The notes: a model not told the origin generated them from the sequence alone. 64,000 nt of DNA from Halioglobus maricola (GCF_009388985.1 NZ_CP036422.1:2804501-2868500); one strand, 5' to 3'; positions 14,677 through 45,392 are shown, counted from the first letter of the stretch. Numbers and translations: made by a program.

Positions 14677-15339
14677 TTACTTGCCCTGTTGCAGCCAGAC
14701 ATCCCAACGCTGCTCAGGGGACTGGTGCCAGGTGTATCGTGCTAGCCGCCCACCTGAATTCAACCAGAACGCGGCATCTTCCGTGTACTGGCCACCGATA
14801 AACTGCCATCGCTCACAGGGAGTTATGCTGCCTGCTGGATTCTGCAAATCTTCTGTGCCCAATAGATGTACTGCGCGCCGACTTATATCGGGTAGAAGCA
14901 GGGTATCGAGCTCCTGTGGGCTGCCGATGGAAGGAACGAGCACCTGTCCCGCGCCCCTTGCTGCCGCGAGCTCGGCGATCACGGATCCGGTGAATATGCG
15001 CATCAATGGGTAGCCTACAAGCTCACTCCCCAGCGGGGTAAAGTCTTCCACATTGCCATCAATCTCACGGCAGCCGCACCAACCACTGTTTACATCCAGG
15101 CGATAGCGCGCGCGAATGGGATTTGCACCATCGGCCTGCCAATCGACGTCAAATTCTGAAAGTTGGCCCCGTACGACCCGCGCAGCAACGCGTATGGCAA
15201 TACCTGGTGCAGCGCGCTCACTGGCGATCGCCAGCGCACCCTCATCCAGCCGGGTAACACTCCATGTTTCCTTGACAGGCACGGGCTCATCGTTAAGTAG
15301 ATACAAATAGCTGCCAATGCCCTCTTCCAATTGCCACAT
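14677..15339 (-). CDS. island protein, unrecognised, beta-rich
   Basis: A 220-residue soluble protein with no recognised family. Alternating polar and hydrophobic residues suggest an all-beta, possibly lipocalin-like fold; this is a guess. Its ATG overlaps the stop of the upstream VOC gene (ATGA), which itself overlaps the nitrilase gene, so the three are translationally coupled. That context makes it part of the nitrilase operon. A small-molecule-binding or accessory role would fit, but nothing catalytic is visible. Confidence 0.55.
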   Translation of the reverse strand: MWQLEEGIGSYLYLLNDEPVPVKETWSVTRLDEGALAIASERAAPGIAIRVAARVVRGQLSEFDVDWQADGANPIRARYRLDVNSGWCGCREIDGNVEDFTPLGSELVGYPLMRIFTGSVIAELAAARGAGQVLVPSIGSPQELDTLLLPDISRRAVHLLGTEDLQNPAGSITPCERWQFIGGQYTEDAAFWLNSGGRLARYTWHQSPEQRWDVWLQQGK

Positions 15340-15797
15340 CAGCGCTGCGATTCCTGGATCAACTCCACCAGCTGACCGCCGGTGGTATTGGGATCGAGAT
15401 AAACCATCAATTTCTCGCCGGTAGAGATCACGCCGTCCGGCGTCACATACCCAGGCCGGACACCGGCCTCAGCGAGCACGGCTACAGCGGCGTGAATGTC
15501 GCTGACACACCAGGCGATATGGTTGATGCCTCCCCCTCCGCTTGGGCTGGCAAATAGCAGTTCTCTAAATTTCTCACTACAAGGCTGAATATACTCAAAG
15601 GCCAGGCCACCCACTTCAAAGAAAGCAAAACGCGTTTCCGCCGGCTGGTCCGGTGATGGCACCTGACGAATGCTGCCCGGCTTGATGCCATACAGTCGCA
15701 TCGCTTCCGTCAAAGCCCCCTGCAAGTCCTCAACCACGTATCCCACGTGCGCAGGGCAAAGGATGTAGTCGCACAGTAGTTGGCGGACATCGTTCAT
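15339..15797 (-). CDS. VOC/glyoxalase-family protein
   Basis: A 152-residue vicinal-oxygen-chelate protein close to methylmalonyl-CoA epimerase in layout. It has two beta-alpha-beta-beta-beta modules, with H-V-G-Y-V-V-E-D at residues 17-24, I-N-H-I-A-W near 90 and G-x-L-V-E-L-I near the C-terminus supplying the metal-binding His/His/Glu set. VOC proteins isomerise, open or epimerise substrates through a bound metal. It is coupled by 4-base overlaps to the nitrilase upstream and the unknown gene downstream. The exact reaction is open. Confidence 0.8.
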   Translation of the reverse strand: MNDVRQLLCDYILCPAHVGYVVEDLQGALTEAMRLYGIKPGSIRQVPSPDQPAETRFAFFEVGGLAFEYIQPCSEKFRELLFASPSGGGGINHIAWCVSDIHAAVAVLAEAGVRPGYVTPDGVISTGEKLMVYLDPNTTGGQLVELIQESQR

Positions 15798-17506
15798 TCC
15801 GCGAGCTCCGCAACAATACCGCCACTCAAATGCCAGGGACGATCGGCGATCAGGTCCGTTTGCTCGGACATCAGTTTGTTGGCTGCCGCGCCCAAATTCA
15901 GCTGCACTTCTGTCACGCTCGCTCGCACCCGGGTAATCAGGGGTTGATTGATATAGCCGTCAAAACTTCGTTCTCGCCACGAGGTCATCAGGGTAAAGTC
16001 GGCGGTAAGGTTCGCTATCTGGCCGTGCTCGCTGCTGTAGACGACACACATCCGATTCTCTGCTGCTCGGCTGGGCAATGCCCATGCGGCCTCCCAATCA
16101 GGATGTGGCACGCCAGGCACGAGGAGCAAGTGCGCACCCTTGATCGCCGCAAGCTTCGCGATTTCCGGGTAGCGCATGTCATCGGCAGTGCAGATACATA
16201 CCCTGCCCCACTCGACTTCGCAAAACTTGAATTCATCGGCCAGACTCAGCCCGGGAAGACGGGCATTAGCGTGAAGCTGATCCTGCCGAAACACCAGGCC
16301 ATCAGCACCTACCAGCACCGCAGCAAGGGCACTGCCGCCTGCCGCGGGCAAAGGGAGCGATGTGCAAAGCAAGAGATCACGGCGTTCCTGTAACGATGCT
16401 GCGAGCGCGTCGATAACATCAACAGCAAAATCTACCTCTTCCCAGGACAGGCAGAACATTTCAGGCAAAACAGCCACGCGCGTTTCGCTGGAGATCCTGC
16501 TGATAAGGTCCGGGAGTTCCGCTAGTGCCGCTTTACCGGAGGACGAGGGCACCAGGGTTGCCACCTGTGCGCTGGCCACGGGCTCTGTCGCCTGTGCCTG
16601 CTCCGGTGCTTCCGCGATCTCTGTGTATATCTCTGGCCGCCTACTGGCAACGATGTCAGTGCCGTCTTCACGTCGCTTGTCGAGCGCCTGCTCCAACTCG
16701 ATATCGGCCCAGACTACCGCTTCCTCATCACGAGGCCCGCGCGCTAACACCTCTCCTGCCGGGGAGACAATCTGGCTCTCACCGGCTCCGTACAAAAACT
16801 TCACCGGGATATGCGTTTCTGCGCTCACCGCTTCCAGTACATTGGCTGGTATGAGTGGCCCCACCTTGTTTGCAGCCACCAGAAAGCAACGGTTCTCAGG
16901 TGCCCGGGCCGGCACGTGCAGGCTGGCCTCATCCAGGGCAAAGGAATTCAGTGAGTCACAAAATAACTGTACGCCCCGCAGTGCGAGGCAGCGCGGAGTC
17001 TCGAAAGTTACCCCATCGCGGCAGGGGAAAATCCCTACCTTGCCAAAAGGCGCATCAACCACATCGCCCACCGTGTCGGCACGCGTAAACCAGGTATTCT
17101 CATGCCCCATCAATGTCTGCTTGTCAGCGCGCGCGAGGCGCGCACCACAGGGGCTATACATCAACGAAGTTACCGTGATCAAACCATCGGTATTGCGCAG
17201 CGAAACATTGATCACGATATAGCAATCGTGTTGCCGGGCACGCGCGGCAACGGCTTCGAGAAAACTGCCTTCAAGCTCCACCGCTACACGCCAGGCGTGG
17301 TCGGCGTCCTCATACCAGGAGATATGGTTACAGAATTCTGGCAGCACCATCACATCCGGACAGTGGACCGCTGCCTCGTCGATCATACGCAAGCACGTGA
17401 CCAGGTTTTCACCGACATCCGTGCCGCTCGCGAACTGCAGAGCAGCTACTCTCGTCTTGCCTTCACTCACCTTTTGATGATCTCTTTCGTTGTTAGCATT
17501 TTGCAT
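15794..17506 (-). CDS. tandem-domain nitrilase-superfamily amidase
   Basis: A 570-residue protein made of two carbon-nitrogen hydrolase domains. The first (about 18-290) has a complete Glu-Lys-Cys triad: E57 in V-L-P-E-F-C-N, K129 in A-D-K-Q-T and C162 in F-P-C-R-D-G. The second (about 315-550) keeps a glutamate (E349) but lacks the lysine and has alanine (441) where the cysteine should be, so it is probably inactive. The family hydrolyses amides, carbamoyl compounds or nitriles. It heads a minus-strand operon with VOC and unknown genes, divergent from the epimerase/SDR/RCCR operon. A paralogue with the same layout is at 30645. Confidence 0.85.
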   Translation of the reverse strand: MQNANNERDHQKVSEGKTRVAALQFASGTDVGENLVTCLRMIDEAAVHCPDVMVLPEFCNHISWYEDADHAWRVAVELEGSFLEAVAARARQHDCYIVINVSLRNTDGLITVTSLMYSPCGARLARADKQTLMGHENTWFTRADTVGDVVDAPFGKVGIFPCRDGVTFETPRCLALRGVQLFCDSLNSFALDEASLHVPARAPENRCFLVAANKVGPLIPANVLEAVSAETHIPVKFLYGAGESQIVSPAGEVLARGPRDEEAVVWADIELEQALDKRREDGTDIVASRRPEIYTEIAEAPEQAQATEPVASAQVATLVPSSSGKAALAELPDLISRISSETRVAVLPEMFCLSWEEVDFAVDVIDALAASLQERRDLLLCTSLPLPAAGGSALAAVLVGADGLVFRQDQLHANARLPGLSLADEFKFCEVEWGRVCICTADDMRYPEIAKLAAIKGAHLLLVPGVPHPDWEAAWALPSRAAENRMCVVYSSEHGQIANLTADFTLMTSWRERSFDGYINQPLITRVRASVTEVQLNLGAAANKLMSEQTDLIADRPWHLSGGIVAELAE

Positions 17507-17579: not shown

Positions 17580-18431
17580 ATGCACATTTTTGTCCTCGGC
17601 ATGGGTCATGTCGGCAAGGCGCTGGCGGCCCAGTTACGCGCTTCAGGCCACCGTGTTACCGGTTCGACAACCACACCAGGCAAGGTAGACGGCCTACTGG
17701 ACCATGCGGATGATGTTGTCGTCCTGAAGGGTTCCGAAACTGAGAAACTCCATGCGGCAGCCGCTGGCTGCGATGCCATCATCGTCACTGTGGCACCGGA
17801 CGTAAAGAAAACCAAAACGATTGAAGAGCGTCACGAGCACTACCACGAAGTACTGGTAAAGAGCTGCCACAGCGCAAGATTGGCATGTCCGCACGTCATT
17901 TTTCTCTCGTCTTTCTCGGTGTATGGAGATGGCGGCAACGAGGAAGGCCCCGTGTCCGAAACAACGCCCACAGCCAACAAGGAGGAACCTTCTTCTCGCT
18001 ACTACCAGGAGGCGGAACAGGAGGTATTGAGCAACACTGAGGGCTGCGTCCTGCGTTTCCCTGATATGTATGGTGCACCGGGTGACCTGAGCTTCGAGGA
18101 ACGCGTGGCGCTGTGCCACCAGTACTTTGGTGGCAAGGCCATTTTCAGCGCCGATGCCCCGCTGTACGCCATTCACTTTGAAGATGTCGTCAACGCTGTA
18201 CGCCATGCGCTGGTGGAGAACCTCAGGGGTGTGTTCAATGTGTGCGACAACGACAACATCCCCCACTCCAACAAAGAGGTGTTTGACGCGATCTGTGTTG
18301 CCGCAGAAATGGCGCCGCTCGAATTCCTCGACCAGATCAAGGCCCCGCTCAAGAAAATCTCGGCGGCCAGGATCTATGCCACTGGCTACAAGGTCAGCCA
18401 CGCTGATCCCAACGCACACTTGTTCCAATGA
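17580..18431 (+). CDS. NAD-dependent epimerase/dehydratase-like protein
   Basis: A 283-residue extended-SDR-like protein. The Rossmann motif is V-L-G-M-G-H-V-G-K-A near residue 5, S-S-F-S-V-Y-G-D lies near 113 and a conserved tyrosine pair, S-R-Y-Y, near 140. The usual Y-x-x-x-K is replaced by Y-Y-Q-E-A-E, so whether it is an active oxidoreductase is uncertain. It has a good ribosome site (AAAGGG). Its stop overlaps the ATG of the following SDR by four bases. First gene of the rightward operon (epimerase-SDR-RCCR-like-MFS). Confidence 0.7.
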   Translation: MHIFVLGMGHVGKALAAQLRASGHRVTGSTTTPGKVDGLLDHADDVVVLKGSETEKLHAAAAGCDAIIVTVAPDVKKTKTIEERHEHYHEVLVKSCHSARLACPHVIFLSSFSVYGDGGNEEGPVSETTPTANKEEPSSRYYQEAEQEVLSNTEGCVLRFPDMYGAPGDLSFEERVALCHQYFGGKAIFSADAPLYAIHFEDVVNAVRHALVENLRGVFNVCDNDNIPHSNKEVFDAICVAAEMAPLEFLDQIKAPLKKISAARIYATGYKVSHADPNAHLFQ

Positions 18432-19228
18432 CGTTGAACGTTGTCATTACCGGTAGTACCGAAGGCATCGGCCTCGGTCTTGCGGCAGAGTTCGCCAGCC
18501 GCGGCCACAATGTCGCCATCTGCAGCCGCAGCGCTGACAAACTGGAATCAGCCCTGGCGAAACTGGCGGCACAGCCCGGAAAAACGGTGGGCAGGATCTG
18601 CGACGTTGCCGACGTTACTGCCGTTCAGGCGCTGTGGGACAATGCAAAAGAGACGTTTGGCGAAATTGACATCTGGATCAACAATGCCGGTCTTGCCCGC
18701 ACCGTGTGGCCCATCCTGGAGGTACCTCAGGGGGAAGTCGAAACCATGCTACGCACCAACATGCTGGGCACCATCAACGGCTGCCGCGTAGCGGCTAACG
18801 GCATGCGCGCCCAGGGCCAGGGCAAGTTGTTCAATATGCTTGGTGGCGGCAGCAGTGGCGAATACTTCCCAGGGCTAGGCATTTACGGCACGACCAAACG
18901 AGGCCTGGATTACTTCACCGACGCACTTGGAAAGGAACTCGCCGACTGCGACGTTATCATCGGCAAGATTCGTCCCGGCATGGTCATTACCGAGGCCGTG
19001 ATCCGCGAAGCACGGGAGAAGCCCGAGGCGTTCGAAAAATCACGCGCCACGATGAACAAGCTGGTAGACAGGGTCGACACCGTCGCGCCGTACCTGGTCG
19101 ATGGCATTCTCGCTACGCAGAAGAGCGGCACCATGGTCCGCTGGCTCAATGGCGGCAAAATTGCCATGCGCATGACCAAGGGACTTTTTGTCAAACGTCC
19201 TGATCAGTTCGAACCTTTTGGCCTCTAG
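18428..19228 (+). CDS. SDR oxidoreductase resembling chlorophyll b reductase
   Basis: A 266-residue classical SDR. T-G-S-T-E-G-I-G is the cofactor loop (8-15), N-N-A-G is at 85-88 and the catalytic Y-G-T-T-K at 153-157. From memory of plant NYC1/NOL proteins, the L-F-N-M-L-G-G-G-S-S-G stretch before the tyrosine and the R-P-G-M-V-I-T-E-A segment after it look alike. These could equally occur in other SDRs, so the link is tentative. It is coupled to the preceding gene and followed 31 bases later by the RCCR-like gene. A second SDR of the same type is at 34487. Confidence 0.75.
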   Translation: MTLNVVITGSTEGIGLGLAAEFASRGHNVAICSRSADKLESALAKLAAQPGKTVGRICDVADVTAVQALWDNAKETFGEIDIWINNAGLARTVWPILEVPQGEVETMLRTNMLGTINGCRVAANGMRAQGQGKLFNMLGGGSSGEYFPGLGIYGTTKRGLDYFTDALGKELADCDVIIGKIRPGMVITEAVIREAREKPEAFEKSRATMNKLVDRVDTVAPYLVDGILATQKSGTMVRWLNGGKIAMRMTKGLFVKRPDQFEPFGL

Positions 19229-19259
19229 GCCGCCAACACCAAAATAGAAGGAAACAGCT

Positions 19260-20069
19260 GTGACAGCTCACGCCGATACCAAGACTATCGATCAGTTTCT
19301 GGCAGAAAACCCTGACGTAGACGTCAGCCAGGCATGGGAAAAGTGCTGGGGGACACTGGCAGACATCAAAGGCAAAATCGCTGCCCGCTTCCCGGGGTTG
19401 GAGTTTGAAGCCAACTGTGCCGACCGCGAGTACTACACATCGCCCAACGGCGAATTTGAAGGTTCTTTCCAGGCCTGGAGCGGCCCTGGCTGTGAATGGT
19501 TGGTCAACTCGTGGCTGGGCAATCGCAAGGCCAGTATTCTGGACATGAATACGACCGCCTTTCTCGGCCAGGACACCGATGTCCCGCACTTTGTCATGGT
19601 GTTCGGCACGATCCCAAAACTGTTTTTCTACTTCGATTTCACCCCGCGGCGCAATTTGATGGTGGATGCCGATTACCTTGATCGCTACTACACGCCGATC
19701 AACGACGAATATCTCGCCCTGCGCGGCAACCCCGACTTTCAGTGGTCCGTAAGCCATGGCCCCTACATGCGCGCGCTCACCAATCCCTCGACCCAGAGCC
19801 TGACCGCAGAGCTGAACGAGACCAATATCGATCTGCTTTCGGACTACGCCTATCGCATGCTCGATCACTGGACGGGCTGGCTGGATGACGCCAGCATCAT
19901 TCCCGAGGCCGAACAAAGCGCCCTGCGCGTCTACGACCACAAGGTCCGCGAGCTCGGCTATGCCCGCGACCCGATGAACAAGCTTGCCGAGCAGGTCTTC
20001 GGGGCAGACCAGGTCGATTACATGCTCAACTTGCGCATGGGCCGTGAACAGATGAACCGCAATTCATGA
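19260..20069 (+). CDS. RCCR/bilin-reductase superfamily protein 1
   Basis: A 269-residue protein with a GTG start after AGAAGG. By eye it follows plant red chlorophyll catabolite reductase along most of its length. G-E-F-E-G-S-F (64-70) parallels the plant G-T-A-E-A-S-L; V-N-S-W-L-G follows; V-P-H-F (108-111) and F-D-F-T-P-R-R-N-L (125-133) parallel P-N-F and L-D-L-P-H-R-K-D-L; D-Y-L-D-R-Y-Y (138-144) parallels D-Y-L-K-E-Y-Y. A C-terminal R-D-P (D237) may match the plant active-site aspartate, while valine 114 replaces the catalytic glutamate. RCCR uses ferredoxin to reduce a linear tetrapyrrole. Its stop overlaps the MFS start. Confidence 0.7.
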   Translation: MTAHADTKTIDQFLAENPDVDVSQAWEKCWGTLADIKGKIAARFPGLEFEANCADREYYTSPNGEFEGSFQAWSGPGCEWLVNSWLGNRKASILDMNTTAFLGQDTDVPHFVMVFGTIPKLFFYFDFTPRRNLMVDADYLDRYYTPINDEYLALRGNPDFQWSVSHGPYMRALTNPSTQSLTAELNETNIDLLSDYAYRMLDHWTGWLDDASIIPEAEQSALRVYDHKVRELGYARDPMNKLAEQVFGADQVDYMLNLRMGREQMNRNS

Positions 20070-21349
20070 GCACGCCTGTGCGCTTTCTTGGCATAGACCT
20101 CAGCGATGGCGTAAAGAAACATCACCTCCTCGCCTATCTGGTCGCAGCATTTGTGTCTTCGAGCTACGCCGGCGCACTTGCCATGTTACAGCCCGGCTTG
20201 TTGCAGGTCATGGGTATAGAGCGTGCGGCGCAGGCCACTCTCACCGGCAATCTCTCAGCACTACAGGAAGTCGTGCTAATACTGTTCATGGGGCCGATTG
20301 GCGCGCTGGCTGATCGTTATGGACGCAGGCCTGTTTACGCTTTCGGCCTGCTGGCCACTGCGATCGGGTTCGCACTATATCCGCATGCTGACTCCATCAG
20401 TGAACTGGTCGCCTACCGCATCATTGTCGCCTTTGGCGGTGCTGCGATGGTGGGCATGATGGTGACGGTGATCGCCGACTACACCTGTGACTCAACCCGC
20501 GGCAAGGCCAATGGTCTGCAGGCACTGATCGCCACACTTGGCGCTTTCCTGCCACCAATGTTGGGCGCCCTGCCCCAGCTATTCGTAAATCAGGGCTACG
20601 ACCAACTCGCGGCCCAACAGATAACTTTCGCTATTGCCGGTAGCCTGGGCGTATTCGGCACCCTTGTCGTGATCGTCGGCCTGGCACCCCATGTGGGCAA
20701 AGCCACTCACGCCGCTGGCGAATCCATCGCCACCATGATGCGTGAAGGTTTGAAGCATTCGCGTGATCCGGGCATTGCACTTTCCTACGGTGCTGCATTT
20801 ATTTCTCGCGGCGATCTAGCGGTCACCGGTGCATTCCTCAGCTTGTGGTTGGTTCAATTCGGTACAGGCGTGCTTGGCCTGGAACCCAGCCAGGCCATGT
20901 TCGAGCTCGCTGTTCCCCGCGTTCTGATGGTCGTTACTGGAGCCTTGATTGGATCGCTACTCATGGGCTATATCAACGACCGGGTCAGCCGGGTGACAGC
21001 AGTGACGCTGGCTTCAGGCCTCGCCGCCGCAGTATATCTCTCGATTTTCTTTGTCGATGATCCCACGGCACCCTGGGTATTCGGCTTACTCGCTGTGATG
21101 GGCGTGGCGGAAATCAGCGCCTTTGTCAGCAGCCAGGCGCTGGTGGGCGAACGCGCGAACCCAGAACGCCGCGGCGCCATCATCGGCCTGTTCGGTGTCG
21201 CCGGTGCGGTTGGTATTCTGGTGGGCACCGCAGGCGGCGGCTGGCTGTTCGCAACCTTTGGGCCATCTACCCCATTCGTCTTGTTCGGTGTGCTCAACGG
21301 TGTAGTGTTCGTCTGGTCTATGCTGGTGAGGCGCGCAGAAAAGGCCTGA
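20066..21349 (+). CDS. MFS transporter, island copy 1
   Basis: A 427-residue major-facilitator protein with twelve predicted helices. The loop between helices 2 and 3 has G-A-L-A-D-R-Y-G-R-R-P, the family signature. The ATG overlaps the stop of the RCCR-like gene, so the carrier is made together with it and probably moves the pathway substrate or a product across the inner membrane. It is clearly related to the MFS gene at 33185 (shared opening layout and shared D-Y-x-x-x-x-x-R-G-K-A block). The substrate is unknown. Confidence 0.85.
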   Translation: MSTPVRFLGIDLSDGVKKHHLLAYLVAAFVSSSYAGALAMLQPGLLQVMGIERAAQATLTGNLSALQEVVLILFMGPIGALADRYGRRPVYAFGLLATAIGFALYPHADSISELVAYRIIVAFGGAAMVGMMVTVIADYTCDSTRGKANGLQALIATLGAFLPPMLGALPQLFVNQGYDQLAAQQITFAIAGSLGVFGTLVVIVGLAPHVGKATHAAGESIATMMREGLKHSRDPGIALSYGAAFISRGDLAVTGAFLSLWLVQFGTGVLGLEPSQAMFELAVPRVLMVVTGALIGSLLMGYINDRVSRVTAVTLASGLAAAVYLSIFFVDDPTAPWVFGLLAVMGVAEISAFVSSQALVGERANPERRGAIIGLFGVAGAVGILVGTAGGGWLFATFGPSTPFVLFGVLNGVVFVWSMLVRRAEKA

Positions 21350-22053: not shown

Positions 22054-22830
22054 CTAGAACTCTTCCAGCAGACGACCCTTGCCCGTGATCTTGTCATTGA
22101 CGCCGCAGGCGCGCAGGGCGTGCCAAACAGTGGCGACATTGATCGGCACCAGGGGTTTTTCGAGGTAGTGCTCCAGTGTTGGAAACAAGTCGACGGTAGA
22201 GAGATTAGTGCCCGCCTGGATAATAATATCCACGTCGTCGCCATCAACTTCTTTAACAGCATCAATCACATCCTGAATGGGCGTTTCAGCGATCGCCGTC
22301 GCCGAGGGGCGATTTAGACCTTTCACCGCTTTCACTTCATAACCCAGCTCTTCATAGTATTGACGCACATTGACGTCGCCGACGGGTGGATAAGGTGTGA
22401 TAACGGAAACCGTCTTGGCGCCAAATACATCGATGGCCTGCTTGGTCGCTTCCGCACCTGTGGTCAGGCCGAGATCGCCGATATGCTCGCGAATACCCTG
22501 TTCAAACTGGATGCTTCCCTCCACACCGCCCCAGAAAGTCTCTGCAGACATGCCCAACATGATGTGATTGACCTTGGCAGACATCACATAGCGCAGGGAC
22601 TGCGGAATCTCACCGCGCATGATTTCAAGAAAACGTTCAAAGACGGTATCTGCAGATTCGCCTGTGCTATCCACCTCGTCAGCCCAATTGCGCAGCTCGA
22701 TCCAAAAACGGGAAGGATGCCAGGTGACGCCATCCAGGCCGAACTTCTGCAGATCGTACTCCACACCGGTATTGGTTGACGGGATGATCACGCCGATCTG
22801 GGCGCGCTTAGCAATTTGATAGTTATCCAA
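22054..22830 (-). CDS. maleate isomerase/arylmalonate decarboxylase-like protein 1
   Basis: A 258-residue Asp/Glu-racemase-superfamily protein starting at TTG, supported by GGAG eight bases upstream. The V-I-I-P-S-T-N-T opening (residues 14-21) and the I-N-V-A-T-V-W-H-A-L-R block are typical of the maleate isomerase/EutA/AMDase branch. Both catalytic cysteines of that branch are replaced: methionine 94 in L-G-M-S-A-E and glycine 207 in Q-A-G-T-N-L. It therefore cannot use the known two-cysteine or one-cysteine chemistry. It has its own promoter with an FNR-like site. The paralogue at 23562 has the same substitutions. Confidence 0.8.
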   Translation of the reverse strand: MDNYQIAKRAQIGVIIPSTNTGVEYDLQKFGLDGVTWHPSRFWIELRNWADEVDSTGESADTVFERFLEIMRGEIPQSLRYVMSAKVNHIMLGMSAETFWGGVEGSIQFEQGIREHIGDLGLTTGAEATKQAIDVFGAKTVSVITPYPPVGDVNVRQYYEELGYEVKAVKGLNRPSATAIAETPIQDVIDAVKEVDGDDVDIIIQAGTNLSTVDLFPTLEHYLEKPLVPINVATVWHALRACGVNDKITGKGRLLEEF

Positions 22831-24398: not shown

Positions 24399-24411
24399 CA
24401 CTCACTCCTAT

Positions 24412-30535: not shown

Positions 30536-30584
30536 GGTTTGCTCCATAAAGGGGCCGCCCTGTAAAGGCTGCACGTTCAACGGC

Positions 30585-37910: not shown

Positions 37911-38885
37911 ATGTCCGACAAACAACCGAGCAACTGGCAAAAAGCGATCGAAGGCGAGTGGCACGGCTGCCCCTCCCTGTTCGAAAGCGACGGCACCTGG
38001 GTGGGTACCAATAAGGTGAATCGTGCCAGCGAGTTCAAGGATGGCCGCACCACCTACTGGATGGAGACGCGCTTCGATGCCACAGGCCCATTGATGGACC
38101 GTTTTGAGATCGGCGCGCGAATGGAATTTGGCGTGGTGGATTCTGACCAGGACCGCATCTACACCGGACCGGACTTTATTGGCTCAGGCCGCCCATACGG
38201 CCTGCTGGTTGACTCCAACTATTACTCGCCGGGCTGGAACGTAAACCTGCGCACCGTCAACCATGTGGTGCCCGAACTCGGCATGCAGGTGTATTCCTCC
38301 CAGCTCTTCGAAGGAGACACTATTGTCGGTGTCTTCAATGGGCTGTACATCGTCACCCAGGACCACGAATCCAACCCGGCCACCCAGCAGCAAGTCAGCG
38401 ACTGGCTGGAGAAGGAAAAGATGGACGGCAAGAAGCCGTTTAACTTGTCCGTAAAACACGAGGGTGTCTATCGCGGGGAGTTCGAGGTTTACGACGCCAA
38501 TCAGCAACTGGTCGGCACCAACAAAGTCACGATCACCCACCGCCCCATCAATCTGCTGCACTCAGAGCAGACCATCGAACTGGAGGGTGTGGTCAATCAT
38601 AAATGGACGGCCATGCGCACGCGCAATGGCAACACCCAGCAGTTTCACGGCCCCGACATGTTCGGCAACGGCAAGTCCTATGGCCGCTACCTGTACTCTA
38701 TCCGCCATGTTTATGGAGAGCCGCTCAAGCTGTGGTCTCGCGAAACCGTGGTTGACGAAGACAACACGCTGGTCTGTGCCTGGCAATTGATCGAGTCGCA
38801 AAAAGAAAAGTACACACTGTTCGGCGTACTGCGCTTTGAGGCCGGTGAAAACGTACTTGCACCTACCTACGTAGACCGAGGATGA
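37911..38885 (+). CDS. island protein with two internally repeated halves
   Basis: A 324-residue soluble protein with ATG at 37911 after AAGGAA. The two halves share clear landmarks: V-G-T-N-K-V occurs in both, and G-P-D-F-I-G-S-G-R-P-Y-G in the first matches G-P-D-M-F-G-N-G-K-S-Y-G in the second. The strands and spacing suggest two lipocalin-like beta domains. I do not recognise a named family. The ATGA overlap couples it to the downstream CRP/FNR regulator, so it may relate to ligand sensing or pigment binding. Nothing catalytic is visible. Confidence 0.6.
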   Translation: MSDKQPSNWQKAIEGEWHGCPSLFESDGTWVGTNKVNRASEFKDGRTTYWMETRFDATGPLMDRFEIGARMEFGVVDSDQDRIYTGPDFIGSGRPYGLLVDSNYYSPGWNVNLRTVNHVVPELGMQVYSSQLFEGDTIVGVFNGLYIVTQDHESNPATQQQVSDWLEKEKMDGKKPFNLSVKHEGVYRGEFEVYDANQQLVGTNKVTITHRPINLLHSEQTIELEGVVNHKWTAMRTRNGNTQQFHGPDMFGNGKSYGRYLYSIRHVYGEPLKLWSRETVVDEDNTLVCAWQLIESQKEKYTLFGVLRFEAGENVLAPTYVDRG

Positions 38886-39637
38886 CCGCCATTCAGCAGG
38901 GGCTGGCCAGCAGCCGTCGAACTCATTACCATGCTGGGGTCAAAACCGCCGTGGGATCACCCCTTTTGAGCATCGAGACAAACACGCCTCTTACCATTTA
39001 TTCCGGCCTCAACCAGAAGGACGCTGGCCAGTTGGACGAGCTGGTGACCCACCGTCTGCTGGATTCAGGCGACTACTTGTTTCACCAACACACGCCGGCA
39101 AAATCTGTCTATATGCTGGAAGAAGGCATGCTGATGATGGAGCGATCATCCTCGACCGGCCGGCGTCAGGTCATGGCGTTCATGCAGCCGGGGAATTTCA
39201 TCGGCATTCCACACAACCAACACTACGACTATACGGTGTCTTCGCTACAGCAGTCGAAAGTGAGGGAAATACCGCTCAAGCCCTTTGTGGCGCTGCAGGA
39301 TAAATGCCCTCAGTTAATGGAAAACGTGCGTGGTATCGGCGGTAATATTCTCGCCCATACACTCGACCAGGTGTTCGCCCTGGGTCAGAAAAAAGCTCAT
39401 GAACGTGTGTGCTTCCTGCTCAAGCAACTGTCAGATCGGGCACCAGTACCCAACTGCCGGACGGTAGATCTGGTGATGACCCGCCAGGATATCGCTGACT
39501 ATCTCGGATTAACGATCGAAACTGTGAGCCGTGCATTCGGCAAGCTCAAGCGCGAAAAGCTGATTGATATCTACTCTGCGCACACTGTCGAAATTATCGA
39601 CATGGACGCGGTTGCCGAACTCGCCCTGGCGGACTAG
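38882..39637 (+). CDS. CRP/FNR-family regulator
   Basis: A 251-residue regulator with a cyclic-nucleotide-type beta-barrel (about 45-130), dimer helix and C-terminal winged helix (195-245). The recognition helix T-I-E-T-V-S-R-A-F has E213, S216 and R217, the E-x-x-S-R arrangement FNR uses to read TTGAT. The N-terminal cysteines that hold the FNR iron-sulphur cluster are absent, so oxygen sensing of that kind is unlikely; a FixK/DNR-like or small-molecule (possibly haem or bilin) signal fits better. The matching palindromes at 22905, 30613, 32394, 35305, 36040, 36987 and 37839 are its probable targets. Confidence 0.85.
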   Translation: MTAIQQGLASSRRTHYHAGVKTAVGSPLLSIETNTPLTIYSGLNQKDAGQLDELVTHRLLDSGDYLFHQHTPAKSVYMLEEGMLMMERSSSTGRRQVMAFMQPGNFIGIPHNQHYDYTVSSLQQSKVREIPLKPFVALQDKCPQLMENVRGIGGNILAHTLDQVFALGQKKAHERVCFLLKQLSDRAPVPNCRTVDLVMTRQDIADYLGLTIETVSRAFGKLKREKLIDIYSAHTVEIIDMDAVAELALAD

Positions 39638-40272
39638 CCAAAGAATGCTGCTACGGCCTGCTTCATCTCTGCCGTGCAGGCTTGCACATCCTCATCCCCA
39701 CTCACCCAATGCTGCCAACGCTCTGCGGCGGGATATTCAGCAAGCGGCTCTGCCCGACCGAACATGGGCGCGAGCATGAGCACGTACTCCATATTGGTAG
39801 CCAACACCATGTCACCTGCATGCACTGCGCGATCGGCAAAATCTGGCAGCATGTTCAACAAGCGATCCAATCGGGCCAGCTCCTTGTCCAGCGCTTCCAG
39901 CACTTCTTCTGCATTTTCAGTGCCGCCAGGCTGCACCACGCGCTGGAACATCGGAAACAATGCCAACGGGCCCAGATATGTATCAGCATACCGCGCCAGA
40001 AGTTGCATATGCGCTCGTGCGAGAGGCTCTGCCGGAATCAATTGGGTGCCGGACAGGGCATCCAGATACTCCATAATCACCCAGGAATCGGGTAACTGGC
40101 TGCCATCATCCAATTCCAAAACCGGAATTTTACCCAGCGGAAACTGCTCTATGAACTCGGGCGTTCCCGTGGGCGCAGGAGGGTCGAGAATCTCTACTGC
40201 CAGACCCTTTTTGCGAATCAACATGCGTACGCGAGTGGCATAGGGAGAGTGATTCATGTTGTACAGTTTCAT
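39634..40272 (-). CDS. glutathione S-transferase-like protein
   Basis: A 212-residue GST. I take the ATG at 40272, preceded by AAAGGCGG. The thioredoxin-like N-domain opens M-K-L-Y-N-M-N-H-S-P-Y-A-T-R-V and has the cis-proline block G-K-I-P-V-L-E-L-D-D-G; the helical C-domain follows from about residue 85. In ring-cleavage pathways such proteins act as maleylpyruvate isomerases or detoxify electrophiles. It converges on the regulator gene with a four-base overlap and is divergent from the lyase operon at 40357. Confidence 0.8.
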   Translation of the reverse strand: MKLYNMNHSPYATRVRMLIRKKGLAVEILDPPAPTGTPEFIEQFPLGKIPVLELDDGSQLPDSWVIMEYLDALSGTQLIPAEPLARAHMQLLARYADTYLGPLALFPMFQRVVQPGGTENAEEVLEALDKELARLDRLLNMLPDFADRAVHAGDMVLATNMEYVLMLAPMFGRAEPLAEYPAAERWQHWVSGDEDVQACTAEMKQAVAAFFG

Positions 40273-40356
40273 CGTGCCGCCTTTCTTGGGTGGAATACAA
40301 TATCGGTTCGCTAGAATGGAGCGGCCCGAAAACAAACACAAGCCCCGGGGAAAAAG

Positions 40357-41232
40357 ATGAGCAATCCACAAGGCAAGATTCTCCGTGAGCGACTGCGCCA
40401 GCCCGAGCTGCTAAAGGTGCCGGGAGTTTACGATGGCTTGTCCTCGTTGCTGGTGGAGCAGGCCGGGTTCGAGGCGGCCTTCCTCTCCGGAGCCTGCCTG
40501 TCCTTCGCCCGTTTCGGCAGGCCCGACATGGGCCTGGTGACCGCATCAGAAGTCGCAGAAACCGTGGCAATCCTCCGCGATCGCGTGGCTCTTCCTCTGA
40601 TCATCGATATCGACACTGGCTTTGGCAACGCTCTCAACGTGCAGCGCACAGTGCGCGATCTGGAACGCGCCGGCGCCAGCGCACTCCAGTTGGAAGACCA
40701 GGTAGCGCCAAAACGCTGCGGTCACATGGTCGGTAAGAACGTGATTCCAACCGAGGAAATGGTCGGCAAGATCAAAGCCGCGCTCGACGCGCGTGAGTCC
40801 GCAGATACCCTGCTGTTTGCCCGCACCGACGCACTCGGCGTGAATGGTTTCGAAGACGCGCTGGAGCGCGCCGAGCGCTATCTGGAAGCCGGCGCCGATG
40901 CACTGTTCATCGAGGCGCCGCAAACGACGGACCAGATGCGTGAGATCGGCGCGCAATTCGGCAAGCGCGCAGCTCTTATCCACAACCTGGTTGAGGGAGG
41001 TAATACGCCAGTGGAGCAAGCCGACGAACTGGCATCGCTGGGGTATCGCATAGCCCTTTATCCAGCGGCCCTCTTGCACGGATTCACCCCGCTTGCTCAG
41101 GATCTTCTCGCTCACATCAGCGAGAAAGGTGACACCATGGCCAGACGCAAAGAGATGCTCCAACTCGACGACATGAACCGTATTCTCGGAGCTGGCGAAC
41201 TTCTGGAAACTGGCGATAGCTACGGAGAATAA
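40357..41232 (+). CDS. PEP mutase/isocitrate lyase family lyase
   Basis: A 291-residue TIM-barrel lyase. It has G-A-C-L-S near 45, the metal-binding D84-I-D86 in I-D-I-D-T-G-F-G, E113 and the catalytic loop K119-R-C-G-H. K-R-C-G-H is the version found in methylisocitrate lyase and 2,3-dimethylmalate lyase, which split C-C bonds of substituted malates into pyruvate or succinate plus a second acid. It heads a plus-strand operon with two alpha/beta hydrolases and a membrane protein. A role in splitting alkyl-malates from maleimide-type fragments would fit the island, by inference. Confidence 0.85.
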   Translation: MSNPQGKILRERLRQPELLKVPGVYDGLSSLLVEQAGFEAAFLSGACLSFARFGRPDMGLVTASEVAETVAILRDRVALPLIIDIDTGFGNALNVQRTVRDLERAGASALQLEDQVAPKRCGHMVGKNVIPTEEMVGKIKAALDARESADTLLFARTDALGVNGFEDALERAERYLEAGADALFIEAPQTTDQMREIGAQFGKRAALIHNLVEGGNTPVEQADELASLGYRIALYPAALLHGFTPLAQDLLAHISEKGDTMARRKEMLQLDDMNRILGAGELLETGDSYGE

Positions 41233-41236
41233 GGCG

Positions 41237-42187
41237 ATGAGGCAATTAGTGACTCTGCTGGGCAAACTATTTCTGTTAGTGATGCTGGCGCTGGCTCTCG
41301 GAATCGCCTGGCTGGCCTGGAGCAATCGCGACCTGCCGGTGGCGGTCCTGGAAGCACGTTACGGCGGTGACGGACTGCAGCAAGTCAAGATCGATGGCGT
41401 CGAGCTGCGCTACAAGCTCGAAGGACAGGGCCCGCCCGTGGTGCTACTGCACTCTCACTTTTATACCATGCGCATGTGGCAGCCCTGGGTGGACGCACTC
41501 AGCGAAGAATTCACTGTTGTTCGCTACGACCTCACCAGCCACGGCCTCACAGGCCCGGATCCCAGTGAAGACTACTCCCGCGAGCGCGGTACCGATCTAT
41601 TGGATGGCCTGCTCAAACACCTGAATATAGAGCGTACTGCTCTCGCGGGTTCGAGCACAGGCGGTGCCCTCGCCTGGTACTACGCTGCCCGCTTCCCGAA
41701 CAAAGTGAATGCGCTGGTACTTGTGAATGCCCCGGGCATGCCACGCGTCACCAACAAGTATATGGAAAAAGAATTGCCTGGGTGGTTCGGCCACCTGCTG
41801 TACCTGCTGCCGGAATCACTGTTTCGTCCCTTCCTCGAAGCCCCGGTTGTCGACAAGTCACTCATCACCGATGAATTGCTACACGAGTTTCACAGCATGT
41901 ATCGCAGGGAAGGCAACCGCATGGCCGAGTACCATCGTTTACTGGCCTGGGAACGAGGTGACATCCGCCCTACCCTTGCCCGCATTACGGCCCCCACACT
42001 CGTCATGTGGGGCGAGGACAATCCTCAACTGCCTGTCGAACACGTCGCCCAATACGCCGATGCCCTGACCGGGGCCGCGTCAGTAAACACAGTGATTTAT
42101 CCAGATATCGGCCACGTGATTCCGTTAGAAATCCCGACCGAGTCGGCGCGCGATACCCGCACGTTCCTGCGGGAGGCACTGCAATGA
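41237..42187 (+). CDS. membrane-anchored alpha/beta hydrolase
   Basis: A 316-residue alpha/beta hydrolase with an N-terminal membrane helix (about 7-28). Motifs: oxyanion region L-L-H-S-H, nucleophile elbow G-S-S-T-G with Ser140, aspartate in W-G-E-D-N and a terminal histidine in D-I-G-H-V. The triad is complete. It is four bases after the lyase gene and its stop overlaps the start of the chlorophyllase-like gene. The substrate may be an ester such as the phytyl or methyl ester of a pigment, but many alpha/beta hydrolases look alike. Confidence 0.8.
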   Translation: MRQLVTLLGKLFLLVMLALALGIAWLAWSNRDLPVAVLEARYGGDGLQQVKIDGVELRYKLEGQGPPVVLLHSHFYTMRMWQPWVDALSEEFTVVRYDLTSHGLTGPDPSEDYSRERGTDLLDGLLKHLNIERTALAGSSTGGALAWYYAARFPNKVNALVLVNAPGMPRVTNKYMEKELPGWFGHLLYLLPESLFRPFLEAPVVDKSLITDELLHEFHSMYRREGNRMAEYHRLLAWERGDIRPTLARITAPTLVMWGEDNPQLPVEHVAQYADALTGAASVNTVIYPDIGHVIPLEIPTESARDTRTFLREALQ

Positions 42188-43221
42188 ACGTACTTACCGC
42201 TCGGCTTATGTCTCCGCTTTTAGCCCTGTTTCTGACAACATTGTTGGCCGCCTGTGGTGAAGATCCCGTGCTACCCCCTGCCAAGCCCCTCTCAGCACCG
42301 GCAGCTGCTATAGACGCGCTGTATGGCGCCCAGCCCGGTGAACACGAGGTACGTATTGCACGTGATCTGGTGCTGCCGGAGACAGCGCTGCGTCGTGAGC
42401 TGACATTTAACCTCGTTTATCCCGCACACGGTGGCGACTATCCTTTGCTGGTCTTCTCCCACGGCAACTTCTCCAGCAAAGACAGTTACGATCGGGTCAT
42501 TGAACACCTTGTGAGCCATGGCTACGCAGTTATTGCGCCCAACCATCTCGACTGCTGTTCAATGGTGGGCGGCATCGTGGCGAGCCTGCGCCTGGGCCAG
42601 TACGGGCAGATTGAAGCGCGCCAGCAGGATGTCATTGCCTTGCTGGACGCCTTGACCGAGATTGACTCTTTGGCACCGGCATTTGCCGGCAAGTATGACA
42701 TCGACAAACTGGCCATGGCCGGCCACTCCTTTGGCGCCTTCAGTGCGCAACAATTCGGCGGCGCGGCGGCATATAACCCCGATCAGGAAGCCTATATCGA
42801 TGCTTTCGATGCTCGGGTGAAGGCCATTTTTGCCCTGTCTCCGCCGGGCCCTATGTTCGATACCATCACCGCAGACAGCTGGACCCAACTGCGGCTCCCC
42901 ACACTGGTGACCACCGGCACATGGGACGTGCAGAAAGGCTTCTGGACGGACTACCGAATGCACTTGATGTCGCATGATCGGTCGCCGGCTGGCGACAAAT
43001 ACGCGCTCGTGATCGACGGTGCAGACCACTATCTGGGAAATTTGATATGCCGACCTGAACGCGAGGCGGAGCCGCAGCATGACGCTCTCCGGATGGTCAA
43101 CGCGATGGGCGTGGCATTCCTCGATGCCTATCTGAAGAATCTGCCGTTAGCATGGGCCGCATTGCAGAAAGACCGGATGGCCGAGGTAAGCGACGGCTTC
43201 GCTCGGCTAGACCGACGCTGA
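42184..43221 (+). CDS. chlorophyllase-like lipoprotein hydrolase
   Basis: A 345-residue lipoprotein; the ATG at 42184 overlaps the previous stop and begins a signal with lipobox L-A-A-C (cysteine 24). Y-P-L-L-V-F-S-H-G-N (86-95), S-H-G-Y-A-V-I-A-P-N-H (111-121) and nucleophile G-H-S-F-G with Ser182 follow the chlorophyllase/PAF-acetylhydrolase/dienelactone-hydrolase layout; plant chlorophyllase has G-H-S-R-G at the elbow. The enzyme would act in the periplasm or at the outer membrane, where it could cleave a long-chain ester before uptake. The chlorophyllase link is tentative. Confidence 0.75.
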   Translation: MNVLTARLMSPLLALFLTTLLAACGEDPVLPPAKPLSAPAAAIDALYGAQPGEHEVRIARDLVLPETALRRELTFNLVYPAHGGDYPLLVFSHGNFSSKDSYDRVIEHLVSHGYAVIAPNHLDCCSMVGGIVASLRLGQYGQIEARQQDVIALLDALTEIDSLAPAFAGKYDIDKLAMAGHSFGAFSAQQFGGAAAYNPDQEAYIDAFDARVKAIFALSPPGPMFDTITADSWTQLRLPTLVTTGTWDVQKGFWTDYRMHLMSHDRSPAGDKYALVIDGADHYLGNLICRPEREAEPQHDALRMVNAMGVAFLDAYLKNLPLAWAALQKDRMAEVSDGFARLDRR

Positions 43222-43228
43222 TCTGGCC

Positions 43229-44236
43229 ATGTCCAACTTGCGTACAGATTCCATGCGGTGGATATACATAACAGGGCTGGGCGGTTGCATAGCGATCATG
43301 GGGCTTATTCTGGCTCTGGCGCCCTTCAGCACGCCGGACATGTTTGTGCCGGATCAGGGCGTTCACTGGTATTACTGGAAGCTGCAACACCCTGATTTCT
43401 GGTCGCGTTTCTCAGCCTGGAGCCTGTACGCCCTGCACCAGCTGGGCCTATGGAGCGTGATTGCCTGGGCCCAGGCGAAACGACCTGGCTATACCGCTGC
43501 TCTCCATCCTGTAAACATCGCCGCCCTGACACTTAATCTGGTTTTCGTACTACTGCACATCGGCCAGACGAAGTTCTTTTACGACGGCCTCGCCCAGGAC
43601 ACCCATGTGATGTCCTCGCAATTCTCAGTCATCTTTATGCTGGTCTTTATCCTGCTGATGGAAAACAGCCGGCGAGGGCTGTTCTTTGGACTAAAACTGA
43701 ACTTTCTTAACGGGCCGGGAGGGTTCCTGCGAAAGTACCACGGCTATTACTTCTCCTGGGCAATCGTCTACACCTTCTGGTTCCATCCCATCGAGGACAC
43801 CCTCGGCCATCTGCTGGGCACGTTCTACACGCTGATGCTCCTGATGCAGGGCAGCCTGTTTTTCACCCGCGCACATCGCAATCGCTACTGGACCTTACTG
43901 CTCGAGGCCTTTGTCGTCTTGCATGGCGCGATGGTGGCCTACCTGTCGATCCAGGGCGAAATGTGGCCGATGTTCCTGTTCGGGTTTTTGGCGATCTTCG
44001 TCATCACCCAGATACATGGTATCGGGCTCGGCAATCGCACCCGGTGGCTACTCGCTATCGGCTACATCGCCGCTGTAGTGGCACACTATTGGGGGAAGGG
44101 ATCTGAATGGATAGAGGTGTTGCGTATCCCTGGCGCGGAATACGCACTCGTCTTCATCTGCGCGGGCGTAATCTGGCTGCTACTCATGCTGGCTCGCCGG
44201 CTCAAACCACCGCGCCCGGATACTAGCCCTCGCTGA
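43229..44236 (+). CDS. multi-pass membrane protein, unrecognised
   Basis: A 335-residue protein with about nine hydrophobic helices. Several histidines lie near helix ends (L-H-Q-L-G near 70, L-L-H-I-G near 110, W-F-H-P-I-E-D near 190, L-H-G-A-M near 230, I-H-G-I-G near 265), a pattern compatible with haem or metal binding, though I recognise no family. It follows the chlorophyllase-like gene by seven bases. Its last 14 bases overlap the end of the convergent Rieske gene. Confidence 0.6.
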   Translation: MSNLRTDSMRWIYITGLGGCIAIMGLILALAPFSTPDMFVPDQGVHWYYWKLQHPDFWSRFSAWSLYALHQLGLWSVIAWAQAKRPGYTAALHPVNIAALTLNLVFVLLHIGQTKFFYDGLAQDTHVMSSQFSVIFMLVFILLMENSRRGLFFGLKLNFLNGPGGFLRKYHGYYFSWAIVYTFWFHPIEDTLGHLLGTFYTLMLLMQGSLFFTRAHRNRYWTLLLEAFVVLHGAMVAYLSIQGEMWPMFLFGFLAIFVITQIHGIGLGNRTRWLLAIGYIAAVVAHYWGKGSEWIEVLRIPGAEYALVFICAGVIWLLLMLARRLKPPRPDTSPR

Positions 44237-45392
44237 TACTGACTAAATTGTCCGGGCCAGAAGGCGCGTTGGTAGCGGGCACCAATGGCACCGTTTCCAA
44301 TGCCCAGCGCAACTCGGGATTGCGCCGCCTGGCGGGCGAAGGAATAGTGAAAATCTTTTCGCCTTCGTAGGGCTGCATCGCCTTGTGATCGATTTTCCAA
44401 CCCTTTTCTTCGACATGCACCTTGCGCACCTTGCGCCAGGCGCCCATGAACTTGTCCTGCTCCACTGAGACTTCGCTCTCTAGTGACTCCGGAAGATAAT
44501 GCGGCGACAGTGCTTCGACAATATCGGCGTCTTCCTGAAATACCTTTAAGGTACGCTTGACCGAACCGCCATCGAACATGCCCCATTTGAAGAAATTGCG
44601 AACCTGCACCACGAACGACCGTGTCGTGTGCTCATCTATCGGCGTATTGCAGTCAAAAATGATCATCGACATCCAGGAATTCACCTGGATGTGTAAGCGC
44701 ACTGTGTGTCCTGGCAGGTAGAAAGACGGGTGTACGTGGGTCTCTGCTTTGTCCTTGCGGAAGAATTTATTCAGGCCCATCCCCCCTTCCAGTGGAGGAG
44801 GATAGAGTACGCAGGACGATGTACCGGAGTACTCAGTACGCTCCATTTTGGTGATGTGATTTTTATCGGCCATCTCCCGGTAGCCGAATCCTGGATGCAC
44901 AAAAGACGTGTGGGCAATGTCGATACCATTTTCTACGACCCGATTCACCTCGGCATTCCAGCTGAACTCGGTATAAATGGGCCGCCAATTGGCGCGGTCT
45001 TCATACTCCGGAAATGGGGGAATGGGATAGCGATCCGCTTCATCCAGGTCGCCCATAAACACCCAGATCATGCCGTAGCGTTCCTCGGTAGGATAGGCAT
45101 CGATACGGGCGCGTTCAGGCACGTCGCCCCCTTCGCCACGGGAAGGGATAAACTGAACTTTACCCTCAGGATCGAACTCCCACCCGTGATAGGGGCAGGC
45201 AACGCAATCGCGCTCGGTAGTCCAACCCCCGGAAAGGGCGCCGCCGCGGTGAATACACACATCACTCAGGCAGTGAGCTTTACCCTGGCTATCGCGAAAG
45301 AGAACAAAATTCTGACCCAGCAATTTTGCTCTCACCGGCTTATCCTTCACCTTGTCGGACCATTCGGCCACGTACCACAGATTTACCAGCAT
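44223..45392 (-). CDS. Rieske non-haem iron oxygenase, alpha subunit
   Basis: A 389-residue oxygenase. The Rieske cluster ligands are C46-x-H48 and C66-x-x-H69 (17 residues between). The catalytic iron set N-G-I-D-I-A-H-x4-H gives D158, H161 and H166. This is the phthalate/vanillate-demethylase/pheophorbide a oxygenase class. The C-terminal C-x-x-C typical of plant PaO is absent, so it is not a clear PaO orthologue. No reductase or ferredoxin gene is adjacent. In the island it is the best candidate for oxidative macrocycle or ring attack. Confidence 0.9.
   Translation of the reverse strand: MLVNLWYVAEWSDKVKDKPVRAKLLGQNFVLFRDSQGKAHCLSDVCIHRGGALSGGWTTERDCVACPYHGWEFDPEGKVQFIPSRGEGGDVPERARIDAYPTEERYGMIWVFMGDLDEADRYPIPPFPEYEDRANWRPIYTEFSWNAEVNRVVENGIDIAHTSFVHPGFGYREMADKNHITKMERTEYSGTSSCVLYPPPLEGGMGLNKFFRKDKAETHVHPSFYLPGHTVRLHIQVNSWMSMIIFDCNTPIDEHTTRSFVVQVRNFFKWGMFDGGSVKRTLKVFQEDADIVEALSPHYLPESLESEVSVEQDKFMGAWRKVRKVHVEEKGWKIDHKAMQPYEGEKIFTIPSPARRRNPELRWALETVPLVPATNAPSGPDNLVSISEG

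Follow-up and report, generated by a model that had tools for sequence, protein, structure and literature searches.

The PaO/phyllobilin pathway of chlorophyll breakdown in plants comprises chlorophyllase or PPH, PaO, RCCR and methylesterases. Chlorophyll turnover has been put at about a billion tons per year (PMC12930011). In bacteria, RCCR homologues have been on record from cyanobacteria since 2009 (Nostoc punctiforme Npun_R3277/R3279; PMC2716323). Bilin reductases of heterotrophs, partnered by heme oxygenase, V4R and globin, followed in 2023; linear tetrapyrroles are the substrates of the characterised RCCR and FDBR enzymes, and a cyclic one is that of the related coproporphyrinogen oxidase fold (PMC10151467). 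A bacterial RCCR/Rieske cluster, or a gene set taking a tetrapyrrole to central metabolites, was not found in the open-access literature searched, which is not proof of absence. The locus considered here lies in a 64,000-nucleotide stretch (the window) at 2.80-2.87 Mb of the 4.31 Mb single-contig genome of Halioglobus maricola (GCF_009388985.1 NZ_CP036422.1:2804501-2868500), where the initial annotation had proposed a tetrapyrrole (chlorophyll-catabolite) degradation island at 14677-45392. The island is likely to be the chief part of a regulon for the catabolism of an exogenous tetrapyrrole. The cluster as a whole is probably a route, so far undescribed, by which bacteria feed on pigments of the chlorophyll or bilin type; the chances that chlorophyll itself is the substrate are about even.

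All of the gene classes named for this interval are present at their coordinates. Besides three RCCR-like proteins, they comprise two adh_short short-chain dehydrogenases (SDRs), a Rieske/VanA_C oxygenase, a chlorophyllase-like lipoprotein and two other alpha/beta hydrolases, a pair of MFS carriers, two CN_hydrolases with double domains, an isochorismatase, two proteins of the Amdase/maleate-isomerase family and a PEP-mutase-family lyase. The interval was drawn too small to be a whole unit, as an aldehyde dehydrogenase (ALDH) gene at 5745-7223 and at least three further genome loci belong with it. The three RCCR-like proteins are:

19260..20069 (plus strand): RCCR1, RCC_reductase/FDBR superfamily (Pfam RCC_reductase, 43.3 bits)
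29783..30547 (minus strand): RCCR3, bilin-reductase-fold protein without a Pfam family (hhalign and structure model)
36127..36948 (plus strand): RCCR2, RCC_reductase family, core gene of the cross-phylum cluster (Pfam, 72.6 bits)

As in the plant PaO/phyllobilin pathway, a Rieske oxygenase, RCCR-family reductases, ester hydrolases and SDRs are found together; the bacterial genes differ in being encoded as a cluster, in a Rieske protein of VanA type, in three RCCR-fold proteins, of which RCCR3 has no Pfam match, and in the addition of putative uptake functions and a putative lower route to central metabolites, whereas plants store phyllobilins. The fold superfamily and the conserved clustering are shared with the FDBR and pre-PcyA/BBAG clusters of heterotrophic bacteria (PMC10151467), but heme oxygenase (PF01126) was detected in 0/12 genomes, with positive controls detected, V4R and globin were unmatched among the island genes scanned, and RCCR1 and RCCR2 score as RCC_reductase, with RCCR3 outside both Pfam families. 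The dimethylmaleate/dimethylmalate branch of nicotinate fermentation likewise employs a LeuCD-type hydratase and a PEP-mutase-family lyase on alkylmalates, and the aerobic nic lower pathway shares maleamate-type amidase and maleate-isomerase families with the cluster; unlike either nicotinate route, the cluster is joined to bilin-reductase-fold enzymes and shows no nicotinate ring-cleaving enzyme, and its alkyl specificity is presumptive.

All three RCCR-like proteins fall inside the bilin-reductase superfamily, RCCR1 and RCCR2 by Pfam (RCC_reductase cut-off 24.9 bits) and RCCR3 by fold, so that a position outside this superfamily, named in advance as a finding that would speak against the annotation, was not observed. 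RCCR1 matched RCC_reductase only among Pfam families, and its orthologue profile matched AtRCCR (E 5e-12) and the bilin reductase 2x9o (E 0.009); RCCR2 also scores 19.5 bits with Fe_bilin_red, and its orthologue profile reached AtRCCR 3agb at E 4.8e-15. A Pfam scan of the window's RCCR3 gave no match, an actinomycete RCCR3 reached just 15.3 bits, below the cut-off, and the RCCR3 profile matched PDB sequences at chance level only, so fold comparison was used. The AlphaFold2 model (pLDDT 76) matches RCCR 2zxk in Foldseek (E 1.7e-7) and aligns with RCCR, PebB, HY2 and PcyA at VIA-align Z 18-19 over 216-229 residues (unrelated rows, 4), and hhalign connects RCCR3 to RCCR2 at E 2.4e-7; going by the model, RCCR3 is a third branch of the bilin-reductase superfamily. 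An Asp invariant in 43/43 aligned sequences lies at AtRCCR Asp290/291 (HMMER and MAFFT placing it one residue apart), and the conserved Asp near AtRCCR Asp291 presumably has a catalytic role.

Evidence for a functional unit comes from other phyla. A block of RCCR2, ABH3, Rieske, RCCR3, B25 and SDR2 recurs across them, usually with NitB and often with the FAD monooxygenase or an ALDH; ABH3, an alpha/beta hydrolase, is encoded outside the window, and the partners of RCCR2 and RCCR3 within it are:

30645..32348 (minus strand): NitB, double CN_hydrolase (153 bits; 35/36 actinomycete loci)
34487..35290 (minus strand): SDR2, classical short-chain dehydrogenase of the cross-phylum core (adh_short, 143 bits; 35/36 actinomycete loci)
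37911..38885 (plus strand): B25, double beta-barrel protein (model pLDDT 92; 77-85% identity in Halieaceae)
44223..45392 (minus strand): Rieske oxygenase 1, VanA_C type (Rieske 74.7, VanA_C 73.5 bits)

A single scan of named genomes via RCCR2 gave 80 loci, in which genes within 10 kb of RCCR2 were counted; because the loci were picked up through RCCR2 itself, its neighbours are unselected. Cluster carriers, which range from marine proteobacteria to soil actinobacteria of the Nocardia type, include Gammaproteobacteria, one deltaproteobacterial metagenome-assembled genome (MAG), Chloroflexi, Acidimicrobiia and actinomycetes, with the genes mostly on one strand. Rieske, RCCR3, B25, ABH3, SDR2 and NitB each accompany RCCR2 in 35/36 actinomycete loci, a set mainly from Nocardia, which is over-represented, and also from Micromonospora, Actinoplanes, Nonomuraea and Nocardioides. 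Acidimicrobiia-type MAGs carry Rieske, RCCR3 and B25 in 11/11 cases, the Chloroflexi carry Rieske and RCCR3 in 4/5, ABH3 in 5/5 and B25 in 3/5, and the sole deltaproteobacterial locus has nearly all cluster genes. Over 40 loci, seven core proteins show correlated pairwise identities (r 0.92-0.97), values inflated by host kinship and the many Nocardia and alone supporting linkage weakly. A chance pile-up of catabolic genes is ruled out because the cluster is conserved across phyla, and its genes are best read, by a wide margin, as one functional unit. RCCR2 had no match in a plasmid collection.

Homologues of RCCR2 also occur away from this block. The Nostoc and Leptolyngbyaceae copies are ~40-45% identical to RCCR2, but the cyanobacterial loci examined are without Rieske, RCCR3 or B25 nearby, and one Leptolyngbyaceae locus has RCCR2 and ABH3 (a MAG, L081:533-2376, with the RCCR2-like and ABH3-like genes adjoining on opposite strands; L and G numbers denote loci and genomes compared). 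Tandem RCCR2-like genes, without Rieske nearby, were seen in Nostoc-type cyanobacteria (L063, L064, L066).

Closer to the window genome, PF06405 is present in 8/98 relatives; of 398 genomes sampled evenly across the phylum, the window genome was the only one to have it. Family genomes with PF06405 also carry much of the island, for the most part at 50-90% identity and frequently in unchanged order, the most fragmentary island being that of G034. ABH3, a TonB receptor (kept in four relatives) and a protein with DUF169 and PCP_red domains are further encoded in relatives' islands, as is a block made up of isochorismatase 2, two PuuE-like proteins, a GntR regulator, a type III CoA-transferase, an HMGL-type lyase and a LeuCD-type hydratase. 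The DUF169 protein, with a C-terminal PCP_red domain, stands beside B01/NitA at L018:2457-3485 (Pfam) and L029:1183-2223 (68% identical); PCP_red is named after protochlorophyllide reductase.

B25 is among the most conserved proteins of the cluster. Its full-length model matches BFA1 (Z 19.8) and the DUF3598 protein 2o62 from Nostoc (Z 19.5), and its first half matches nitrobindin (Z 13) and the phycobiliprotein lyase CpeS (Z 11), folds that make the binding of a bilin or porphyrin plausible.

A second group of genes, encoding oxidative and lower-pathway enzymes, is spread over the island, one ALDH lying outside it:

5745..7223 (plus strand): ALDH1, aldehyde dehydrogenase (Pfam Aldedh, E 2e-113)
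15794..17506 (minus strand): NitA, double CN_hydrolase (nitrilase/amidase; CN_hydrolase in 2 stretches; 51-61% in relatives)
22054..22830 (minus strand): Amdase1, maleate isomerase/arylmalonate decarboxylase family (Pfam Amdase, 51.5 bits; 80-85% in relatives)
23562..24401 (minus strand): Amdase2, maleate cis-trans isomerase-like (Pfam Amdase, 47 bits; 33/36 actinomycete loci)
24412..25623 (minus strand): class A FAD monooxygenase, FAD_binding_3 (177 bits; 30/36 actinomycete loci)
25620..26222 (minus strand): isochorismatase-family amidohydrolase (129 bits), with a putative maleamate-amidase-like role
27031..28467 (minus strand): ALDH2, aldehyde dehydrogenase (498 bits; 67-81% in relatives)
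28474..29745 (minus strand): AcadFMO, acyl-CoA-dehydrogenase fold (Pfam Acyl-CoA_dh N/M)
40357..41232 (plus strand): PEP-mutase/isocitrate-lyase family C-C lyase (Pfam, 143 bits)

Although outside 14677-45392, ALDH1 adjoins the island in five relatives, and ALDHs best matching it stand beside RCCR2 in 31/36 actinomycete loci. AcadFMO has DszC and HsaA among its NCBIfam neighbours (below cut-off) and, in L065, a Flavin_Reduct gene directly upstream; it is probably a two-component flavin monooxygenase. The nearest PDB entry to Amdase2 is the putative maleate isomerase 2xed (E 1e-7). The nearest solved relatives of the PEP-mutase-family lyase are petal death protein (1zlp, E 2e-57), PrpB and 2,3-dimethylmalate lyase (3fa3, E 1e-43), by which it is assigned to the dimethylmalate lyase/PEP-mutase superfamily of C-C lyases; a 63% homologue adjoins PuuE1-PuuE2 in Parahaliea maris (L039, Isoch2-PuuE1-PuuE2-PEPm). 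PuuE1 and PuuE2 are PuuE-like polysaccharide-deacetylase-family proteins, PuuE1 having PuuE allantoinase as its nearest relative.

The genes that relatives carry within their islands lie elsewhere in the window genome, with Rieske2-ABH3 adjoining a TonB receptor (C1:190 kb), LeuCD-CoA-transferase-HMGL at 1.611-1.615 Mb and GntR-PuuE2-PuuE1-isochorismatase 2 at 1.918-1.921 Mb. Their distribution follows that of RCCR: PuuE1 at >80% identity occurs in 7/8 RCCR-positive genomes (the exception, G034, being a fragmented draft) and 0/5 RCCR-negative congeners, ABH3 in 8/8 and 0/4, and intact LeuC2 (59-78% or identical) in 8/8 and 0/5, one of the latter having a broken relic. The apparent relic (L035:14803-15513, in G002) spans half the length of LeuC2 at 83% identity and has an in-frame stop, which suggests loss of the pathway in that lineage. 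In Chloroflexi L062/L112, HMGL, LeuCD and CoA-transferase genes come straight after the RCCR2-ABH3-Rieske-RCCR3-B25-SDR2 block. From their families, the lower enzymes are read as carrying out imide or amide opening, then isomerisation or hydration of an alkylmaleate, then C-C cleavage. The maleimides expected from chlorophyll rings are the ethylmethyl-, methylvinyl- and carboxyethyl-methyl- forms, and such products would fit alkylmalate enzymes.

The correspondence with individual plant enzymes is looser. The remaining genes on which it bears are:

18428..19228 (plus strand): SDR1, classical short-chain dehydrogenase (Pfam adh_short, 132 bits)
26228..27061 (minus strand): alpha/beta hydrolase 1 (Pfam Abhydrolase_1; nearest NCBIfam PcaD, below cut-off)
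41237..42187 (plus strand): alpha/beta hydrolase 2 (ABH2), probably exported (N-terminal hydrophobic segment, by eye)
42184..43221 (plus strand): Chlorophyllase-Pfam/PAF-AH-like lipoprotein (Pfam Chlorophyllase, 49.3 bits)

The plant-style scheme was borne out in RCCR superfamily kinship, though not as a one-to-one match of enzymes. The Rieske protein is not PaO-type: the PaO C-terminal Pfam domain was unmatched in Rieske 1, in its paralogue Rieske 2 (elsewhere in the genome, at 190 kb) and in the actinomycete and Chloroflexi homologues scanned; these proteins instead match VanA_C and, weakly, KshA_C, and the nearest solved enzymes to Rieske 1 are the demethylase-type NdmA, SxtT and DdmC. The metal-site motifs C-x-H/C-x2-H and D-x2-H-x4-H are intact in 70/71 Rieske homologues. 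SDR1 and SDR2 match generic adh_short only and group as classical SDRs; a PDB search with SDR2 at E 1e-25 gave no match, and the NOL/NYC1 labels of both are tentative. The chlorophyllase-like lipoprotein keeps its Pfam match and an N-terminus that reads as a lipoprotein signal, but the match is partial (112 aa, profile positions 33-130 of 301), orthologues were found in Halieaceae only among the family and cross-phylum loci, and the hydrolase conserved across phyla is instead ABH3, which has only short local matches to PET-hydrolase/cutinase structures.

As to the substrate, the genomes tested showed no photosynthetic reaction centre; this and the missing heme oxygenase point to an external substrate whose opening does not depend on a canonical heme oxygenase, a description that fits a chlorophyll-type compound and an imported bilin alike. 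Self-degradation of bacteriochlorophyll was rejected for want of reaction-centre genes, and the canonical heme-to-biliverdin route for want of PF01126. Tetrapyrrole degradation as first proposed is favoured by superfamily membership, the absence of heme oxygenase, the B25 barrel and the co-occurring maleimide/alkylmaleate-type lower pathway, and falls short in the plant one-to-one scheme.

From what is established, namely which genes are present, their folds and superfamilies, and how far they are conserved and occur together, we infer a substrate, an order of steps and a set of activities. A TonB-dependent receptor and MFS carriers would import the tetrapyrrole, most likely of pheophorbide/chlorophyllide type or an opened product, and its ester side groups would be removed by surface or periplasmic hydrolases (the Chlorophyllase-Pfam lipoprotein, ABH2, ABH3). 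Two VanA-type Rieske enzymes may then oxygenate or open the macrocycle, and the three RCCR/bilin-reductase-fold enzymes, with SDRs, would reduce the linear tetrapyrrole stepwise while B25 holds the bilin. Class A FAD and two-component flavin monooxygenases would cleave it to monopyrroles, with ALDHs oxidising formyl products; nitrilases, PuuE-like amidohydrolases and isochorismatases would open amide or imide rings to dialkylmaleates; these may be isomerised by the Amdase/maleate-isomerase family, or hydrated by LeuCD-like enzymes to dialkylmalates; and the PEP-mutase-family lyase, or a CoA-transferase with an HMGL-type lyase, would yield a 2-keto acid and a short acid or acyl-CoA. That all of this amounts to a complete, widespread bacterial pathway mineralising chlorophyll-type tetrapyrroles, with non-PaO Rieske opening, three successive RCCR-fold reductions, one of them by a third reductase family that has no Pfam model, a dedicated bilin-binding barrel and maleimide-to-keto-acid steps, seems to us a little short of an even prospect.

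Several points weigh against tetrapyrrole catabolism of this kind, beginning with the VanA-type character of the Rieske enzyme. No Mg-dechelatase candidate was identified, no obvious tetrapyrrole importer was seen in the actinomycete loci examined, the monopyrrole-forming chemistry is tied to no single enzyme, and a common fold is alone no proof of a tetrapyrrole substrate. The plant-type glutamate at AtRCCR Glu154 is replaced (Ala in 16/17 RCCR2, Val/Ile in RCCR1, Asp in all RCCR3), so that RCCR activity may differ from that of plant RCCR. An inspected Nostoc RCCR2-like copy retains Glu at this position.

Some of these points recur in the alternative of a bilin that is open from the start (biliverdin or bilirubin from heme, phycobilins, or plant phyllobilins) instead of a chlorophyll macrocycle, with the Rieske enzymes trimming side chains or attacking single rings and opening no macrocycle: the resemblance to VanA, NdmA and DdmC puts the Rieske protein in a class of demethylases and hydroxylases, the genome holds two Rieske paralogues, FDBR-fold enzymes classically use open bilins, and no Mg-dechelatase was seen. 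RCCR1 and RCCR2 nevertheless fit RCC_reductase far better than Fe_bilin_red (for RCCR2, the 72.6 and 19.5 bits given above), and heme oxygenase is missing, though an external bilin would need none; we allow this alternative a sizeable minority share of the probability, one that overlaps with that of tetrapyrrole catabolism because it is a sub-case of it. Recruitment of the bilin-reductase fold for a non-tetrapyrrole N-heterocycle (pyridine, pyrrole, indole or hydantoin type), in a cluster akin to the nicotinate lower pathway, is unlikely. An FAD monooxygenase, an alpha/beta hydrolase, an isochorismatase and a maleate-isomerase-family protein recall the enzyme classes of NicC-NicD-NicF-NicE, with NCBIfam matches all below cut-offs; three different RCCR/FDBR members and a CpeS/nitrobindin-like barrel are hard to account for on this basis, and no candidate for NicX (2,5-dihydroxypyridine dioxygenase) appeared among the island proteins scanned. 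A biosynthetic cluster for a modified linear tetrapyrrole pigment or signal is very improbable. In its favour, binding proteins, SDRs, oxygenases and bilin reductases also serve in pigment synthesis, actinomycetes with a wealth of natural products are numerous among the carriers, and bacterial FDBR clusters of that type are known (PMC10151467). Against it, heme oxygenase is absent from the 12 genomes, the linked amidohydrolases, maleate isomerase-like proteins, hydratase, CoA-transferase and C-C lyases are typical of catabolism, and the TonB receptor is retained among relatives.

Should the cluster indeed encode a complete pathway that mineralises chlorophyll-type tetrapyrroles, microbes would have their own equivalent of chlorophyll breakdown in plants, for a pigment that ranks with the most abundant on Earth. 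The cluster would also set bacterial RCCR relatives in a heterotrophic pathway, which bears on the origin of plant RCCR. Candidate genes are now named in isolates (HTCC2148, Pseudohalioglobus sediminis, Parahaliea maris and many actinomycetes), and the question is therefore directly testable.

The island's other genes are:

14677..15339 (minus strand): B01, 220 aa, without Pfam match (31-41% in L012, L018, L029, L030)
15339..15797 (minus strand): Glyoxalase/VOC-family protein (Pfam Glyoxalase_4, 49 bits; 53-64% in relatives)
17580..18431 (plus strand): NAD-dependent epimerase/dehydratase-like protein, RCCR1 operon partner (Pfam Epimerase; synteny in L016, L018, L024, L027)
20066..21349 (plus strand): MFS carrier 1 (Pfam MFS_1; 66-83% in relatives' islands)
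32471..33133 (plus strand): conserved membrane protein, without Pfam match (56-71% in relatives)
33185..34486 (plus strand): MFS carrier 2 (149 bits; 74-78% in relatives)
35382..36026 (plus strand): B22, 214 aa, upstream of RCCR2, without Pfam match (71-84% in relatives)
38882..39637 (plus strand): Crp/Fnr-family regulator (60-81% in relatives)
39634..40272 (minus strand): glutathione S-transferase family protein (profile match)
43229..44236 (plus strand): conserved membrane protein, without Pfam match (52-66% in relatives)

B01 adjoins NitA/Glyox in relatives too, and a DUF3604 protein (819 bits; window 9829-11766) adjoins the island. Small proteins upstream of RCCR2 in Chloroflexi (L112:6938-9969, L054) look lipocalin-like by eye, without a Pfam match. 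A lone RCCR1-like protein (48-57%) occurs in Gammaproteobacteria (L115-L120, L123), where the rest of the island is not alongside; in four inspected loci of this group the RCCR1-like gene is followed by an OmpR-type two-component pair, and in two of the four it is preceded by a [2Fe-2S] thioredoxin-like gene, a protein that adjoins the RCCR1-like gene in L118. Such redox partners also adjoin the core in other lineages: besides the flavin reductase of L065, a double rubredoxin fused to a rubredoxin-reductase-type protein is encoded beside the core in L052, together with a flavin reductase.

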